Shown: in pieces, positions 27,828 through 62,477 of the stretch
Layout: each line of letters starts with the position of its first letter
Position numbering within the stretch: the stretch's first letter is position 1
Source: Desulfomarina profundi
GTDB taxonomy: Bacteria > Desulfobacterota > Desulfobulbia > Desulfobulbales > Desulfocapsaceae
DNA length: 64,000 bases
Direction of reading: 5' to 3'
NCBI RefSeq assembly: GCF_019703855.1
Contig: NZ_AP024086.1
Coordinates: forward strand, 2,190,501 to 2,254,500
Program-made: the position numbers and the translations under genes
The notes under the pieces: model-generated
Databases searched by the model: none
Told to the model about the DNA's origin: nothing
The model's input: the letters and a program-made list of their open reading frames with translations, nothing else

Positions 27828-27982
27828 AGTTCATCTCTTTGTTTCAAGGTGGCCTATAATTGATTCCGGCACGAAATGCTTTTCACTCCACGTCACCAGT
27901 ATGTTATACTTAATTGAAAGGCTGTCGACATCAGAAAAATACAAAATCACTCCAATCCTGCTTTTCAATAATCAGTGGAAAA

Positions 27983-28399
27983 ATGACATTGCAGATCACA
28001 CCATCGTTATCCCTGGCAGACCACGAGATTGAAATAACACCGATTCGTGCCCAGGGACCCGGTGGACAGAACGTCAACAAGGTATCAAGCGCAGTCCATC
28101 TCCGCTTTGATATAAAAAAATCTTCTCTGCCCGAAGAGTGCAAATCCCGCCTCCTTAAACTGCGGGACCGGCGTCTGACCAGGGATGGTATGCTTGTCAT
28201 CAAGGCTCAGCAGTTTCGCAGCCGTGAAAAAAACAGGGAAGAGGCCCTGCAGCGCCTGGCAGACATCATTCGCCGGACAATGGTTACCCGGAAAAAGAGA
28301 AGACCGACCCGTCCCTCCGCGACCGCCAGGAAAAAACGGGTGGACAGTAAAATCAAACGATCCAGGCTGAAAAATCTCCGAAAAAAGGTGACGGAATAA
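27983..28399 (+). CDS. arfB: Aminoacyl-tRNA hydrolase ArfB (YaeJ), ribosome rescue
   Basis: A 138-residue class I release-factor-like protein that enters stalled ribosomes lacking a stop codon and hydrolyses the peptidyl-tRNA. The catalytic GGQ lies in RAQGPGGQNVNKVSSAVHLRF. The chain lacks the codon-recognition domains of true release factors and ends in the basic tail (KKRVDSKIKRSRLKNLRKK) that ArfB inserts into the mRNA channel. The ATG before TLQITPSLSL is preferred because homology begins there; an earlier in-frame ATG at 27914 has no support. Its stop lies five bases before a copy of the family A miniature element. Confidence 0.93.
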   Translation: MTLQITPSLSLADHEIEITPIRAQGPGGQNVNKVSSAVHLRFDIKKSSLPEECKSRLLKLRDRRLTRDGMLVIKAQQFRSREKNREEALQRLADIIRRTMVTRKKRRPTRPSATARKKRVDSKIKRSRLKNLRKKVTE

Positions 28400-28400
28400 T

Positions 28401-28562
28401 GATGATCTCGTAAAAAGTCGTTCAACGTTCTCAGATGGACTCTGGAAAAACTTCGATATACAAGGCGTGGCGGTGTCGTGTAAGCGCAGGCGTACATAGA
28501 GTACGTCGAGCATTACACGATCACCCCACAACGCAGTAGATCGGAGTTTTTACGAGTCCATC
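28401..28562 (+). repeat. Miniature inverted-repeat element family A, copy 1
   Basis: An element of about 160 bases beginning GATCTCGTAAAAAGTCG and ending TTTTTACGAGTCCATC, so its ends are inverted repeats around CTCGTAAAAA. Inside, GTGTAAGCGCAGGCGTAC and GTACGTCGAGCATTACAC form a second dyad. AATAAT occurs immediately on each side (28395-28400 and 28563-28568), consistent with a target duplication. It encodes nothing evident. The same element lies at 30464-30625 (inverted) and 32432-32595 (same orientation). It fills about half of the 320-base gap between arfB and the helicase gene. Confidence 0.85.
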
Positions 28563-28719
28563 AATAATAAATTTAAAACCATTGCTCTTTTATCGATTTA
28601 TTGTTATTCTGTGTTGTTCAACATATACAAGTATCCTGCCGGTCAGCCTTTCTCTGACAGAGTTTTCCTCCAGCGTACTTCATTTACAATAACAACGTCA
28701 TATAACAGGATACTTCCCC

Positions 28720-30461
28720 ATGCATTTATCATCTGACACACCTGCACTCCGTTCATTTTCAGATATGGAGCTGCCGGCTCCTCTTATAAAAAGTCTCGAT
28801 GAATCGGGCTATACCAGTCCCACACCAATTCAAAACGAGATGATTCCCAATATGATTGCCGGCAGAGATGTTATCGGCCAGGCCCAGACGGGAACCGGCA
28901 AAACAGCCGCATTTGCCCTGCCCCTCCTTGCCGGGCTCCCCGGGGAAATCAAAAATCTCCCCGTGTCCTGGTTCTTACTCCCACCAGGGAACTGGCAATA
29001 CAGGTGGCTGAATCATTTAAAAAATACGGGAAGCATCTCAAAAACATAAAAGTCTGTCCCATTTTCGGTGGGCAGGATTATACTATTCAGACCAGGCAGC
29101 TCCGTAAAGGAGTGCAGATTGTCGTCGGCACTCCCGGAAGAATCATGGACCATATCCGCAGAAAAACTCTTGACCTCTCCATGCTGACCAACCTGGTTCT
29201 CGATGAAGCTGATGAAATGCTCAAGATGGGTTTTATTGATGATATTGAATGGATTCTTCAACAGACACCGTCTGAAAAACAGGTGGCTCTGTTCTCCGCC
29301 ACCATGCCTCACTCCATTCGTCGTATCGCCCAGAAATATCTGACTGATCCCGTTGAGATTACAATTAAAACAAAAACAATCAGTGCCAGGACCATTAATC
29401 AACGCTATCTCATCACCAGAAGTTTCTCGCAGAAATTTGATGCCCTTTCCAAAATCCTTGAAGCTGAAGATTCTGACGGCATTCTCATTTTTGTCCGCAC
29501 AAGGGTACAGACAGTAGAACTTGCAGAAAAACTTTCCCGGCTCGGTTACGGATGCAGTGCCCTGAACGGTGATATCCAGCAGAACCAGAGGACAAGAACT
29601 GTGGAACAGCTCAAGTCCGGAAAAATTGATATTCTCATTGCCACAGATGTGGCTGCCAGGGGGTTGGATGTTGAGCGGATCAGCCATGTGATCAACTTTG
29701 ATGTACCCTTTGACGCCGAAGCCTATATCCACCGTATCGGCAGAACGGGCAGAGCCGGACGCAAAGGTAAAGCCATTCTCTTTATCACTCCGAGGGAACG
29801 TTCCATGCTGAAAACCATTGAGAGGTTGAGCAGACAGAAAATAGAAGAAATGAAACTGCCCACTGTTCGAGCCATCAACCTGAGGCGGGTCGAAAACTTC
29901 AAAAAAGGAATAAGCAAAGCCCTGCAGACAGATATCTCTTTTTATCGGGAACTCATCAGGGAATTCAGTGAAGAAACTGATGCTTCTCCAGAAGATATTG
30001 CAGCCGCTCTGGCTTCTCTTGCCCAGGGTGGAAAACCACTGCTGCTCAAGGAGAACAGTCTTCCGGCAAAAAGAAAAAAGCAGAGGAAACAGACGGAGCC
30101 GGCTCAACATCCTCCCGAACAGGGTATGGAACGATACCGGATAGAAGTGGGCAGTGAGCATGGAGTCAAGCCTGGTAATATCGTCGGTGCCATTGCAGGG
30201 GAAGCGGATATTGACAGTCGACATATCGGCCGTATCACTATTTTCGATTCCTTCAGTACAGTCGATCTTCCCGAGGGAATGCCCCGTGACATCTACAGAT
30301 TGCTGCAGAAAGTATGGGTCAACAACAGGCCATTGAAGATTAAAAGAACTGCCGGTAAAAGCAGTGACTCCGTTCCAACACAGAAAAACGGTCGGCGAAG
30401 AAAACGATTTACCGGTAAAAAACGGCATAATAGAAACGTTTCACTGTCTGCACAGCTATAG
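28720..30461 (+). CDS. DeaD-like DEAD-box RNA helicase (frameshift)
   Basis: An ATP-dependent RNA helicase of about 580 residues. The Q motif is SPTPIQNEMIP and motif I is AQTGTGKTAA. After the frame break come the VLTPTRELAIQVAESF region, GGQDY, TPGRIMDH, VLDEADEML, SATM, ATDVAARGLD and HRIGRTGRAG. The C-terminal part (YRIEVGSEHGVKPGNIVGAI to WVNNRPLKI) matches the DbpA-type RNA-binding domain found in DeaD/CsdA and DbpA. One base is missing near 28964, in or next to a CCCC run; restoring it joins the two parts exactly. Its stop codon is the insertion point of a family A element. Cold adaptation or ribosome assembly is the usual role. Confidence 0.88.
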
Positions 30462-30463
30462 CT

Positions 30464-30625
30464 GATGGACTCGTAAAAACTCCGATCTACTGCGTTGTGG
30501 GGTGATCGTGTAATGCTCGACGTACCATATGTACGCCTGCGCTTACACGACACCGCCACGCTTTGTATATCGAAGTTTTTCCAGAGTCCATCTGGGAACG
30601 TTGAACGACTTTTTACGGGATCATC
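30464..30625 (-). repeat. Miniature inverted-repeat element family A, copy 2
   Basis: The same element as copy 1 in opposite orientation, with a few substitutions (for example CCATATG in place of CTCTATG at the centre). TAGCTGAT flanks it directly on both sides (30459-30466 and 30627-30634), a good 8-bp target-site duplication. The left duplication contains the stop codon of the helicase gene, so insertion occurred at that stop codon. Confidence 0.88.
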
Positions 30626-30660
30626 ATAGCTGATAGTTGGAATTTCTCTGGTAGAGATCA

Positions 30661-31494
30661 TTGCTTAAACATACATTTCTACATATTCCCGGTATCGGGG
30701 CCAAAACGGAGAAAAGACTCTGGGAAGCCGGTATCACATCATGGACTGAAATGTCAGGGCCTATACCTTTTCGTCTACCGGCAGCAGCCAGGTTTGATCT
30801 TGAAGGAACACTTGAACAATCCCGCCTGGCCCTGCCCGTCAATCCCCACTTTTTCACAGCCAGGCTCCCTGCCGCCGAAGTGTGGCGCATCTTCCCTCAT
30901 TACCGTCATAAAACCGTTTATCTTGACATTGAAACAACCGGCCTGGGGGAGGGCTCAGAAATCACAACCATTGCCCTCTATGACGGTCAGAAAATACTGA
31001 CCTATGTAAACGGAAAAAACCTTGATGATTTTGTTGATGACATAACAAACTACCAGGTCATTGTCAGTTACAATGGCCGGACATTTGATATCCCGTTTCT
31101 GGAAAAGTTTTTTAAAATCAAGCTGGACCATGCCCAGATTGATCTGAGGTACGTTCTTGCCCGTCTCGGTCTGAAAGGCGGATTGAAGGGATGCGAGAAA
31201 CAACTTGGAATGAACAGGGGCGAACTGGATGGTGTTGACGGCTATTTTGCCGTCCTTCTCTGGCAGCAATACATCAAGTATAATGACACAGGCGCCCTTG
31301 AGACATTGTTGGCATACAATATCAGTGATACGGTCAACCTGGAGCGACTGGCTGTTGAAGCATATAACAGAAATATTGCCGTAACACCTTTTGCAGAAGA
31401 ACTCACTCTGCCGCTTCCCGTACTGCCACGATTGGAAGTTCAACCTGACAGAGCCTGTGTCAAAAAGATCAGACGGATACTTACAGGTCGATAA
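30661..31494 (+). CDS. RNase H-like (DEDD) exonuclease domain protein
   Basis: A 277-residue protein with an N-terminal helix-hairpin-helix (FLHIPGIGAKTEKRLWEAGI, about 6-25) and a ribonuclease H-like exonuclease domain. The metal-binding motifs are DIETTG (about 91-96), NGRTFDIPFL (about 138-147) and a late Asp in AYNISDTVNLERL, as expected for DEDD nucleases of the YprB type. The start is TTG, chosen because the HhH motif begins almost at once and no ATG precedes it. The substrate, structured DNA or RNA, is unknown. The 3' end overlaps the convergent metallo-hydrolase gene by 14 bases. Confidence 0.8.
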   Translation: MLKHTFLHIPGIGAKTEKRLWEAGITSWTEMSGPIPFRLPAAARFDLEGTLEQSRLALPVNPHFFTARLPAAEVWRIFPHYRHKTVYLDIETTGLGEGSEITTIALYDGQKILTYVNGKNLDDFVDDITNYQVIVSYNGRTFDIPFLEKFFKIKLDHAQIDLRYVLARLGLKGGLKGCEKQLGMNRGELDGVDGYFAVLLWQQYIKYNDTGALETLLAYNISDTVNLERLAVEAYNRNIAVTPFAEELTLPLPVLPRLEVQPDRACVKKIRRILTGR

Positions 31495-32397
31495 TCATAC
31501 CCTCTCGGGCAAGAAAGATTTCCGTTTCACCATATTTGCCGGATTGACAGTATTCCTGCGCAAACTCATCCAGCTGGACATCTGTCCGATCCGGATCATG
31601 GTGAAACAGTGCCAGTTGTTTCACTCCAGCCCTGTTGGCGGCACCGATTGCATATTCGATGGATGTATGTCCCCAGTTGATCCTGCTACTGTACTCTTCC
31701 TGTGTATATTGAGCATCATGAATTAGTAGATCAGCTCCAGCAAAGAACTGTTCCAGTGCCAGATTCTGTTCAACCGCCACTTCTTCTCCCTCCTGGGCCA
31801 TGGCCTCATCGTAGAAAGGATCCTCAGGATCGGTGGCAAACAGATTTCTGAAAGGTTCGGTATCATAACACGTGCAAACAACTTTTCCCTCATATTCGAA
31901 CCGGTATCCGAGAGCTGAAATAGGGTGGTTAAGAAGTTTTGTCGCAAGGTGTAACCCTCCCCGAGATCAATTGAGGGATCTTCCTTCAGTCTGATATATT
32001 CGATATTTGACGACAATTCTCCAAGGTTGACGGGAAAATAGCGATACTTCATCTGGCCGCCCACCACGTCTTCAAGGGGATCATCTTCAAAAGTCACAGG
32101 ACCATAAACCTTTATCTCGGTTGTTGGTATGTAGATCGGAGTGAAAAACGGATAACCCATGATATGATCCCAATGGGTATGGGAAAGAAATATCTCCGCC
32201 TTGATGGCTCCTTTGGGGAGATCATTTGCCATCAGCTCATTTCCGAGCATACGAATCCCTGAACCGGCATCAATAATAATGATTCTGTCATCAGAACCCA
32301 CTCGCAGCTCAATACAGGCAGTATTGCCACCATATTTTCCGGTTTCCGGTCCCGGACTGGGAATGGATCCGCGAACGCCCCAGAATCGTATTCTCAT
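31481..32397 (-). CDS. Metallo-beta-lactamase-fold hydrolase (frameshift)
   Basis: An MBL-fold protein of about 305 residues. It opens with MRIRFWGVRGSIPSPGPETG and GGNTACIEL, typical of the PhnP/RNase Z-like sub-family. The metal motif is SHTHWDHIMGYPFF (HxHxDH form, with Thr in the second position). Late ligands fit LLIHDAQYT, GHTSIEYA and LFHHDPDRTD. The frame breaks near 31935: one extra base restores KLLNHPISALGYRFEYEGK and KVVCTCYDTEP, leading into the second half. CAGGGGG precedes the ATG. The substrate may be a cyclic nucleotide or phosphodiester, but this cannot be settled here. Confidence 0.85.
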
Positions 32398-32431
32398 GGT
32401 TTACCCCCTGGTTTTTGTCTGAATCAACCAA

Positions 32432-32595
32432 CATGATCTCGTAAAAAGTCGTTCAACGTTCTCAGATGGACTCTGAAAAAAAACTTCGATATACAAGGCG
32501 TGGCGGTGTCGTGTAAGCGCAGGCGTACATAGAGTACGTCGAGCATTACACGATCACCCCACAACGCAGTAGATCGGAGTTTTTACGAGTCCATC
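32432..32595 (+). repeat. Miniature inverted-repeat element family A, copy 3
   Basis: Nearly identical to copy 1, apart from two or three extra A in the run after GGACTCTG. ATCAACCAA flanks it on both sides (32423-32431 and 32593-32601), giving an 8-9 bp target duplication. It sits 35 bases upstream of the metallo-hydrolase start, where it may disturb or supply its promoter, and just past the true end of the HDOD gene. A related tail AGAAATGAGATT plus TTTTGTTCGAG follows at 32612, resembling family C. Confidence 0.88.
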
Positions 32596-32641
32596 AACCA
32601 ATATTCGTCCAGAAATGAGATTGTTTTGTTCGAGGTCAAAA

Positions 32642-33501
32642 TCAAATCTGTAGAAACAGCTCAGCCTTGTGAATTTCTTCATCCACGTATCCGCCAATGG
32701 AACCGAAATCACCAGGGCTGAGATCAACAAAACGTAACAGACGATGAATTTCCTCTTCCTCCGGGAAAGGATCCCCGCATAACCGTGTTCAAGGATATTG
32801 GTATAACAGTTGCCAAGGGCAATCATGGCAACCTGTACACCAATCTCTCCCTCCAGGCTGTCAATATTGTGATGGGAAGTGATACACTTGGTGATGACTG
32901 TGTTCAATTTCCATTTCTCGGCAATCATCAGGCCAACTTCCTGGTGATCAATGCCGAGAATTTCCCTTTCCACAGTAATCAGTGGCCTCTGTTCCCTTTT
33001 GGCGACACCAAGCACTTCGATATATTCATCACCAAAGGGAACCTTGCCCAGGTCATGGAGCAGACCTGCCAGAAACAGTTCCTCCCGCTCCATGGGCGAA
33101 TATCCTTTTTTTTCACCAAGGAGTTTGGCACTCACTCCCGCACCAATGGAATGGGCCCAGAACTTTGTTGTGGGAAGTGCCTTGGATTTTTTTACGCCGG
33201 AGACAGTACGGATAATCGCCGTGGAAAGAGCAATATTTTTCACCGTATTCATACCCAGCATGGTGATGGCCCGGGTAAGTGAGGTGACCTTGTTGACAAG
33301 GGAATAGTAGGCGGAATTGATCAGTTTCAGAACCTGACCGGTAAGGACGGGATCAAGGGATATGACCTTATTGAGCTCGTTTGGGGACGCATCGGTTCTG
33401 CTGCAGATCTCCATGACCTTTCCCACGGTTGTAGAAAGGCTGGGCATTCTCCGGATAAATTTTTCGATATCCGCTCTCTGTTTTTCCTTACTGAGTCCCA
33501 T
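32642..33501 (-). CDS. HDOD domain signalling protein (frameshift near C terminus)
   Basis: About 287 residues. The N-terminal region (RMPSLSTTVGKVMEICSRTD, then LNKVISLDPVLTGQVLKLIN) and the HD-like core (AHSIGAGVSAKLL, LAGLLHDLGKVPFG, IDHQEVG) match HDOD signal-output domains. HLLHDLG-type residues are partly kept here. The start at MGLSKEKQ has AAGGAA before it. Near 32770 one base is missing in a GGGG run. As written, the frame runs on into the family A element to 32554. With one extra base it continues DPFPEEEEIHRLLRF and ends EEIHKAELFLQI at 32642, a sensible C terminus. The partner and output are unknown. Confidence 0.82.
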
Positions 33502-33633
33502 GATTTCCTTCAAATAATCAAAATGTTACAAAAAATGACATAAACAGTCAGCCATAGCACATTGTATCGAAAGAAGTTCATCTGGTCAAGAAACCTGGCA
33601 TACACTGTCCGGAAATGATTTTCTTTTTATTCA

Positions 33634-45212: not shown

Positions 45213-45455
45213 TAACCCGCATTTCTCATGAACATTGTGTCAATTTTGAGAATAATTATGGAACATAAACAATGAGACAATTATCAGTGACCCAGAAAAA
45301 TTTACACAATGTTCACCAGAGGTCAGTCCAGGCGACGCCATCTTCTGCAGTATTTCGGCAGTAAATATAGATCACTATAATTCACTGCCAGGTAAGCGAA
45401 GACTCCGGGAACTTTGAACCTGACGCCGCCTGAACTCATGAGAAATCCGGGCTAA
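45213..45455. repeat. Palindromic repeat family C, copy 2 (miniature element)
   Basis: TAACCCGCATTTCTCATGA at the left end faces TCATGAGAAATCCGGGCTA at the right end, an inverted repeat of about 18 bases with two mismatches, enclosing about 205 bases. Inside, AACATTGTGT and ACACAATGTT form a nested dyad, and GGTAAGCGAAGAC recurs from copy 1. It fills the gap between the chemoreceptor and the small HTH gene. It looks like a non-autonomous mobile element; flanking direct repeats are not obvious. Confidence 0.65.
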
Positions 45456-61831: not shown

Positions 61832-62339
61832 CCGATATCTGTTTTCTCTACTTTGAGATTCCGGCTATTCTATAACCTGATAATACCGCTGGCCATCACA
61901 AGCCCTGCAGAGAAATTTTTACATCCTTTTCAATACCCCGACAGTTCTGTACCCAGTCTCCGCACTGGTCACACTGTACCTTGTGCATGGAACGGGGAGG
62001 CCATAGAATTTCTACCGGTCATTGCCCTTGGGATCATCGATCCCAATTAATTCCAGACCAAGCTTGGACATCCGTATCCCTATCACCTGACAGGGGTAGA
62101 TATGCCATGAATTTTGTTGGAAATGTTCATCTCGCTTCATACGGCTCTTGTCATTCAACCTTGCAAGCATGCTCTATTCCGGTGGGCCAATAAGTGTCTG
62201 TTCCTTCTTCTGAAGGTATTGACTCTCTTTGCTGCCTGGATCAACGTTCTGACCTTTTTATATTTGTGCAACGCCCAGCGACTTAGCTTCTTATCAAAGT
62301 GAAACAAGAGGTTGGCTATCCCACTACTCTTTACAATAA

Positions 62340-62477
62340 CCGCATAGGGTCGTTTGATTCCAGCTTCTGGCAGCCGAAACCGAGAGGCCTACTCTCATCT
62401 TTAATACAGCACGAATGACTTTCGTCATTCTTCATGACACACGAGCGTAGCGAAAACTCCGACAACCCACTATGCGG
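62340..62477. repeat. Inverted-repeat-bounded segment with inner hairpin
   Basis: Perfect 8-bp inverted repeats CCGCATAG and CTATGCGG enclose 122 bases that contain a 7-bp perfect stem (GAATGAC / GTCATTC) with a 4-base loop. It could be a miniature element or a terminator-like structure. No second copy was found in the window. Confidence 0.35.

Follow-up and report, generated by a model that had tools for sequence, protein, structure and literature searches.

A 162-bp miniature element dispersed in the Desulfomarina profundi genome and its candidate partner insertion sequence in related bacteria

Three element copies around a helicase gene

The window analysed here, a stretch of 64,000 nucleotides from the Desulfomarina profundi genome in which gene names were assigned by eye, contains a helicase gene that looks frame-shifted near its start, as its coding sequence is divided between two ORFs that overlap (28720-29049 and 29004-30461). 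Three near-identical elements were located in this region (28401-28562, + strand; 30464-30625, - strand; 32432-32595, + strand), in agreement with an earlier note on this DNA, which had described three elements of about 160 bp. The element is 162 bp in length, extends from GATGATCTCGTAAAAAGTC to GAGTTTTTACGAGTCCATC, carries the inverted ends GATGnnCTCGTAAAAA and encompasses no transposase gene.

Copy 1 (162 bp) is bounded by a left terminal inverted repeat, GATGATCTCGTAAAAAGTC, at 28401-28419 (+ strand) and by a right terminal inverted repeat at 28544-28562, which reads GATGGACTCGTAAAAACTC on the - strand, while a long hairpin module (GATGGACTC...GAGTCCATC) occupies positions 28434-28562 of the + strand. 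The hexamer AATAAT, previously proposed to flank this copy, was shown to be an exact 6-bp duplication on both sides (28395-28400 and 28563-28568), the left one containing the stop codon TAA (28397-28399) of ORF 27914-28399. Copy 2 (162 bp) is inverted, and is flanked by ATAGCT at 30458-30463 and 30626-30631. The helicase gene ends with TAG (30459-30461), a stop codon that falls within the duplicated hexamer, and copy 2 starts 2 bp past it. Copy 3 (164 bp) has a 2-bp insertion and a C instead of a G as its first base, and is flanked by AACCAA at 32426-32431 and 32596-32601.

The inner dyad ascribed to these elements was borne out by folding, with a minimum free energy of -71.5 kcal/mol (z -8.25) that was equalled by none of 200 shuffled sequences. 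No Rfam family matched any of the three elements above its gathering score, and the terminator scan revealed no terminator-like site within them. In the whole window, the Rfam search recognized only a group II intron (62285-62396).

Copies and insertion sites across the genome

To locate element ends, the whole genome was searched with 19-base left-end and right-end patterns, allowing up to three mismatches. The left-end pattern was found at 60 places and the right-end pattern at 110 (left ends included), far above the 0-3 places per strand obtained with reversed control patterns, which upholds the earlier description of the ends as inverted repeats. Apart from L053, these genome-wide patterns exposed no second element type among the matches listed, from which a diverged pair of ends may have escaped. 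Two places were dismissed as elements, one being a chance match in a gene (4021619) and the other a single end alone (1628678).

The earlier note had regarded a lack of further copies in the genome as evidence against its reading; 58 full-length copies were identified in this single-contig genome, each differing from the consensus at 0-5 positions (mean 2.07). Comparison of these 58 copies fixed the boundary of the element, and the flanking direct repeats, formerly given as 8-9 bp, proved to be 6 bp in all three window copies and 6-7 bp in general: the claimed repeats TAGCTGAT and ATCAACCAA are too long because one side of each takes in element bases. An exact duplication of 5-7 bp is retained at 53 of the 58 copies (6 bp, n=42; 7 bp, n=10; 5 bp, n=1) and has the form A...T in 48 of these 53 cases, while a clean duplication is absent at the other five copies.

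Insertions of the element are mostly intergenic, with an enrichment at stop codons and a palindromic preference at the insertion site. One copy (L055) interrupts the loop of a hairpin resembling a terminator, but insertion into hairpin loops was unsupported when 53 sites were compared: stem lengths gave p=0.058, and folding energy pointed in the opposite direction. Empty counterparts, which the earlier note had suggested seeking and whose absence from relatives it had counted against its reading, were found in two forms. Uninterrupted copies of a second repeat represent, by eye, paralogous empty sites for three insertions (L022, L024 and L036), and the helicase-exonuclease pair lacks the element in all three relatives whose fetched locus included the two genes, this orthologous counterpart being based on gene order only. 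Recent non-autonomous transposition, as originally proposed, is thus supported by the 58 near-identical copies, their duplications, the empty counterparts and an insertion sequence (IS) present in relatives.

A probable partner IS in relatives and alternative sources of mobility

A transposase with matching ends, which the earlier note had proposed to look for together with an 8-9 bp duplication, was identified in relatives but not among the transposase families searched in the host's own genome, and the associated duplication is again mostly 6-7 bp. The autonomous IS of Desulfofustis sp. PB-SRB1 (G018) measures 1,931 bp, has the ends GATGAAGTCGTAAAAAGTC / GATGAGCTCGTAAAAACC and encodes a 614-aa transposase with the Pfam domains DUF772, DDE_Tnp_1_6 and DDE_Tnp_1; a PDB sequence search with this protein returned no relative. 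A 620-aa frame in the same genome was reached via weak hits of a search for ISNCY-type transposases.

In total, 46 loci homologous to the partner transposase were collected from relatives. Among loci with enough sequence, the left end was present with up to two mismatches at 38 of 41, the right end at 33 of 39 and both at 29 of 34 (37/41, 28/39 and 23/34, respectively, with up to one mismatch), as compared with 0/41, 0/39 and 0/34 for the reversed end pattern. Exact duplications flank the IS at 20 of the 46 loci (6 bp, n=15; 7 bp, n=4; 8 bp, n=1), 18 of which have the A...T form, and a clean duplication is absent at two of the three IS copies of G018 (L196 and L197). At two loci the IS and the miniature element (MITE) are arranged in tandem with one hexamer at all three junctions, namely AATTTT-IS-AATTTT-MITE-AATTTT (L199) and AACCTT-IS-AACCTT-MITE-AACCTT (L218). 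The shared ends, the shared duplication length and motif, the empty counterparts and these tandems at one target are accordingly shown.

Element matches were obtained in 25 of the 58 genomes searched, among which a full-length transposase homologue was found only in G018 and a contig-end scrap in G025, many of these assemblies being fragmented. G018 and a second genome, G051, contain 251 and 196 exact end sequences, respectively. In viral contigs, six stretches with the pattern were detected, one of which is a true element (L113). The ~1.9-kb partner IS occurs mainly in Desulfobacterota.

No homologue of the partner transposase was detected in the D. profundi genome at E ≤ 1e-3. The search for other resident transposases, which covered part of the transposase families, yielded 18 DDE_Tnp_1 matches; the 18 fetched loci contain no end-like sequence with fewer than two mismatches, and these genes were rejected as partners, the ends with two to three mismatches not being paired around them. 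ISNCY-type transposases were likewise discarded, as no matching end pair was present at L155-L157 and L160, and end pairs ~1 kb apart in genome G043 enclose ordinary genes between separate MITEs rather than an IS.

We consider it highly probable (roughly 0.9) that the three elements represent a 162-bp MITE for which the DDE transposase of the ~1.9-kb IS acts in trans. The transposase would bind the GATGnnnTCGTAAAAAG ends, excise or copy the MITE and insert it at AT-rich targets of the form Y-AWNNWT-R, where the two strands would be cut with a stagger of 6 bp, or sometimes 7 bp; gap repair would then generate the A-N4/5-T duplication. Since the host's own genome has no detectable homologue, the transposase may have been lost from this host or supplied from outside, and we infer movement in this host from the relatives. 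The hairpin module, which would exceed the needs of the IS, is probably carried by a long-lived non-autonomous lineage.

Mobilization by a resident IS of the NF033578 type (IS5_1) was also weighed, as this IS is present in three near-identical copies, encodes a 505-aa transposase, has loosely similar ends (GATTGCCCTTAAAAAGTC / GAGTATCCTCAAAAAGTCATC) and is flanked by 6-bp duplications at two of its three copies (TAGAAA and TAATTA, by eye). Its target, however, follows T....A, as opposed to A....T for the MITE, its ends are several positions and an indel apart from those of the MITE, and G018 and G051, with their 251 and 196 exact ends, contain no match to it; as the Desulfofustis-type IS fits the MITE better in ends, target and duplication, we regard a role for the resident IS as improbable. 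An origin as REP/RAYT-like palindromes, in which the hairpin would be the substrate of an HUH transposase working on single strands, would account for the long hairpin, the many copies and the intergenic sites. REP/RAYT systems are not known to make a target duplication, however, and neither target duplications nor a DDE-type IS partner are expected of HUH transposition, whereas exact 6-7 bp duplications flank 52 of the 58 copies and the IS with the same ends carries a predicted DDE-type transposase, which renders this origin very improbable.

The hairpin module and comparison with known systems

The hairpin layout is common to nine families of the host's order: inner arms differ strongly between genomes, yet pairing within each element is kept. 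The tip (RTAC-N3..6-GTAY) and the outer arms were found in 30 of 32 elements, a find rate rather than an independent measure, because tip and arm were the search criteria of the script. Strict in-register counts of inner-stem pairs were nearly equal for own and swapped partners (9.4 versus 8.1 of 18; 29 elements), presumably because the stems are bulged, and the difference is visible only in gapped pairing energies. The module was not seen in six folded IS ends (of the 46 loci), save for the adjacent MITE in L199.

Judging from the sequences compared, this apparently order-wide layout with a variable, complementary stem is the unexpected finding. One account, to which we assign slightly less than even odds, holds that the layout is not selected and that template-switching in replication keeps correcting the palindrome, the module being plain cargo. 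Such correction would likewise produce divergent inner arms with retained within-element pairing, and the folded IS ends agree with it; on its own, it leaves the recurring outer arms and tip unexplained, bearing in mind that these were search criteria. We more doubtfully entertain the view that the hairpin is functional and under selection in a non-autonomous lineage extending across the order, with tip and outer arms conserved and an inner stem that changes fast yet stays complementary, as if its sequence were pressed to change (e.g. in evading a sequence-recognising host defence) or acted as a tag of identity. Hairpins with changing stems offer a natural series for asking whether MITE hairpins do anything. 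More broadly, a MITE superfamily that is abundant in sulfate-reducing bacteria is linked here to an IS family that can be defined and whose target signature is A...T over 6-7 bp, and one genome harbours 58 copies of a miniature element without a detectable partner transposase.

Literature searches, with most subscription papers and ISfinder outside their scope, retrieved no paper on this MITE or IS. Among NCBIfam models, the partner transposase matches NF033551 best (IS1182-type; E 4.9e-39), yet its 134.5 bits fall short of the curated cut-off of 270, and membership of the IS1182 family is not indicated by this score. The D. profundi genome has an IS1182-like IS of its own, which at 264 bits is also below this cut-off and has different ends and CGTT-type junctions.

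Bacterial MITEs, as characterized in a review, are elements of <500 bp with terminal inverted repeats, flanking duplications, intergenic locations and a stable stem-loop, and are presumed to rely on an IS that mobilizes them in trans (PMC10969869). The present element resembles them in size, inverted ends, duplications, intergenic sites and stem-loop; it is short, has no transposase gene, and is accompanied by empty sites and, in relatives only, by a matching IS. Chunjie of Geobacter uraniireducens, as described by the same review, is likewise a MITE with dozens of copies in a former deltaproteobacterium (Chunjie-1 and 37 others with conserved ends, 178-235 bp; PMC10969869). Unlike bacterial MITEs in that general description, the D. 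profundi element resides in a genome without a detected partner IS, and carries a variable-stem hairpin that recurs over an order (PMC10969869).

Element copies and their target duplications

The three elements of about 160 bp that the earlier note had described from the sequence alone were confirmed as copies of a single 162-bp MITE, located in the window at 28401-28562 (copy 1, plus strand), 30464-30625 (copy 2, minus strand) and 32432-32595 (copy 3, plus strand), and flanked by exact 6-bp repeats of AATAAT (as noted before), ATAGCT and AACCAA, respectively. The own genome (GCF_019703855.1) is a single contig of 4,307,339 bases, in which the window occupies 2190501-2254500, and a first search of it with the element gave at least 40 matches, 40 of its 67 candidates having been scored. 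With the left-end pattern, 60 places were observed, including a lone end (1628678) and a remnant (975654, in L042; L numbers denote stretches fetched around copies, transposase genes or neighbour genes), and the right-end pattern further revealed a copy that is truncated (L059) and an element that shares the ends but is shorter (L053). The whole-genome search proposed in the earlier note yielded 58 full-length copies, which were extracted with 40-bp flanks; their 162-bp consensus starts with GATGATCTCGTAAAAAGTCG and ends with CGGAGTTTTTACGAGTCCATC. Individual copies differ from the consensus at 0-5 positions (mean 2.07), with 39 of 166 alignment columns being variable, and because of this small divergence the burst is considered recent. 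The shorter element (L053 4933-5019) has an interior resembling a second dispersed repeat, CAGTAAATAATAGTGACCTATATTTACTG, and represents another passenger of the MITE ends.

Target duplications were 6 bp long in 42 of the 58 copies, 7 bp in ten and 5 bp in one, with none or only 2 bp duplicated in the remaining five. The previously suggested length of 8-9 bp was not supported, as the longer strings take in bases of the element itself. A duplication starting with A and ending with T was observed in 48 of 53 cases, the exceptions being AACCAA (window copy 3), ACAGTA (L007), AAATAA (L060), CTTTAT (L035) and a run of A (L026). Since these five are flanked left and right by identical bases, the element boundary was placed at G...C and the duplication taken as 6 rather than 4 bp. 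Among the 43 copies with an exact 6-base repeat (the 42 with a 6-bp duplication plus L026), the target site was found to be the palindromic Y-AWNNWT-R, with A at position 1 in 42, A or T at position 5 in all 43 and T at position 6 in 39. Targeting of hairpin loops, tested over 53 sites, was not borne out; in a single case among these sites (L055, around 2001-2162) the MITE interrupts a 16-bp terminator-like hairpin precisely at its loop.

Gene context and empty sites

Based on crude ORF calls (at least 100 aa), 47 of 58 insertions were intergenic, compared with 255 of 1160 random A....T sites from the same neighbourhoods, and 14 of 58 were located between -6 and +12 of a stop codon, compared with 22 of 1160. 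In the window's own ORF list, the stop-codon position previously noted for one copy applies to two of the three. This bias may reflect purifying selection together with AT-rich sites rather than targeting. The HDOD-like ORF (by eye; 32554-33513, minus strand) enters copy 3, its last residues and stop codon being element-derived. Two neighbouring genes, also assigned by eye, are each represented by two overlapping frames: a DEAD-box helicase (28720-30461; frames 28720-29049 and 29004-30461), which looks as if frame-shifted near its start, as in a pseudogene or by assembly error, and a metallo-hydrolase-like gene (31481-32397, minus strand; frames 31481-31801 and 31723-32397).

The second dispersed repeat, CAGTAAATAATAGTGACCTATATTTACTG, contains an inner palindrome, was identified at window position 45361 (minus strand) and in L022, L023, L024, L034, L035, L036, L048, L050, L051 and L059, and served as the landing site for three MITE copies. 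Compared by eye, L022, L024 and L036 hold a version broken by the element and, for example, L023 and L035 an intact one, in which the bases repeated on either side of the insertion occur once. The empty sites sought following the earlier note were found as paralogous sites, and in three relatives by gene order only. The exonuclease-like gene adjoining copy 2 is present in 10 of 24 genomes, own included, and lies next to the helicase in three relatives (L242, L244 and L249), none of which carries an element end; in the remaining relatives the pair was not seen within the fetched stretch. These empty loci represent gene-order evidence, their intergenic bases not being alignable.

A hairpin layout across the order

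Element matches were obtained in 9 of the 15 sampled families of the order (Desulfobulbales, by the lineage of G018, Desulfofustis sp. PB-SRB1). In ten genomes picked for having such matches, exact GATGNNNTCGTAAAAA counts were 266 (G003), 251 (G018), 196 (G051), 82 (G043), 73 (G007), 33 (G037), 21 (G014), 14 (G032), 13 (G021) and 8 (G054), with 0-1 per genome for the reversed pattern used as control. Exact 6-7 bp duplications were recognized by eye in at least 6 of 28 relative loci (L068, L069, L070, L071, L073 and L075) and not in L064, L072 and L076, these being the loci scored. Several interiors share the same ends (G043 elements, the L053 element and a G003 element at L149 4719-4845).

In relatives, the element runs from a left end through a spacer to an inner end that is degenerate (GATGGCTAAG or GATGGACTC) and an outer arm (AAAAGTTCGATATACAAGGCGT), followed by an inner stem of ~20 bp, the tip RTAC-NNNNN-GTAY and a second arm merging into the right end. 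The layout script, which kept the best-folding centre per element, was applied to 32 elements (one from the window, those at 27 among the 28 relative loci, and those of L113, L199, L149 and L150; L085 was excluded as its element looks deleted), and recovered this layout in 30, with all nine families represented and with tip and arm serving as search criteria; L076 and L082 did not yield it. After removal of L069 (anchor wrongly set), 29 elements were compared, revealing 43-47% identity of inner arms from one element to another versus 74% for the 5' anchor, a value biased upward as the anchor was pattern-chosen. Mean pairing energy was -21.9 kcal/mol for own arms versus -10.0 for swapped arms, with 0 of 10,000 permutations as good, and -22.5 versus -8.9 with one representative for each of seven stem classes (3 of 20,000), permutations that ignore relatedness of elements. 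Strict in-register pairing differed little (9.4 own versus 8.1 swapped of 18). The inner stem is variable but complementary, and may be kept so by selection or by template-switching.

A partner insertion sequence in relatives

A transposase gene with matching ends, which the earlier note had proposed to look for, was found in relatives, where the duplication is mostly 6-7 bp, and not at the DDE_Tnp_1 loci of the own genome. In G018, a 614-aa transposase lies between ends GATGAAGTCGTAAAAAGTC and GATGAGCTCGTAAAAACC of a 1,931-bp IS, one of three copies of which has a 6-bp A...T duplication. A homologue in G010 (51% identical) is preceded by an end of this kind, its other end being lost at the contig edge. 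Scanning genome_contigs (84,980 species) with two peptide patterns only returned 77 stretches, 46 of them encoding a homologue; 41 of these hosts are labelled Desulfobacterota or deltaproteobacteria, cultivated hosts including Desulfosarcina widdelii, D. alkanivorans, Desulfatitalea alkaliphila and Desulfobulbus alkaliphilus, and the other five carry the labels Thiosymbion, Pseudomonadota, Bacteroidales, Gammaproteobacteria and Mariprofundaceae. At loci with enough sequence, MITE-type ends (at most two mismatches) were present on the left in 38 of 41, on the right in 33 of 39 and on both sides in 29 of 34, compared with 0/41, 0/39 and 0/34 for the reversed pattern. Exact duplications at 20 loci comprised 15 of 6 bp, four of 7 bp and one of 8 bp, with A...T in 18. 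A Microvirga plasmid homologue (37% identical) has similar ends, three mismatches from the pattern on each side.

IS and MITE were also observed at one target, in the order AATTTT-IS (1,887 bp)-AATTTT-hairpin MITE (198 bp)-AATTTT in L199 and AACCTT-IS (1,900 bp)-AACCTT-another MITE (133 bp)-AACCTT in L218. These tandems are most simply read as insertion of the second element, by the same machinery, into the target copy regenerated next to the first. Folding of six IS right ends (of 46 loci) showed the hairpin module in L199 alone, where it belongs to the adjacent MITE. None was detected by a motif scan across L195-L240, a weak scan that also failed to recover the L199 module.

Among 58 genomes searched, 25 had element matches and three had transposase matches (G018, full length; G010, 51% identical and without an element match; G025, a scrap). 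In the own genome (one contig, 95.6% estimated completeness), no homologue was detected at E <= 1e-3, and loci of the 18 DDE_Tnp_1 matches had no pair of matching ends. The transposase may have been lost, be too diverged or have come transiently from outside. Other resident elements include three IS1182-like ISs in direct tandem (L096, L098 and L101; genome 2473760-2481274), spaced 1,851 bp, with a 529-aa open frame and CGTT at the junctions; an IS5_1-type IS (L106-L108 / L116, L132, L141) with ends loosely like those of the MITE and 6-bp T....A duplications in two of three copies; and, at window 62285-62396 (minus strand), a group II intron by Rfam (RF01999, 45.2 bits).

The earlier interpretation of non-autonomous transposition is upheld, now with a target duplication of 6-7 bp, a partner IS known from relatives and, as an additional feature, an unexplained hairpin. 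The partner transposase is closest to IS1182 among NCBIfam families, yet its score of 134.5 bits is below the cut-off of 270, and the IS was for this reason not filed under that family. The element is a new member of the MITEs, set apart by the order-wide hairpin layout with its variable stem and by the fact that no resident partner was detected.
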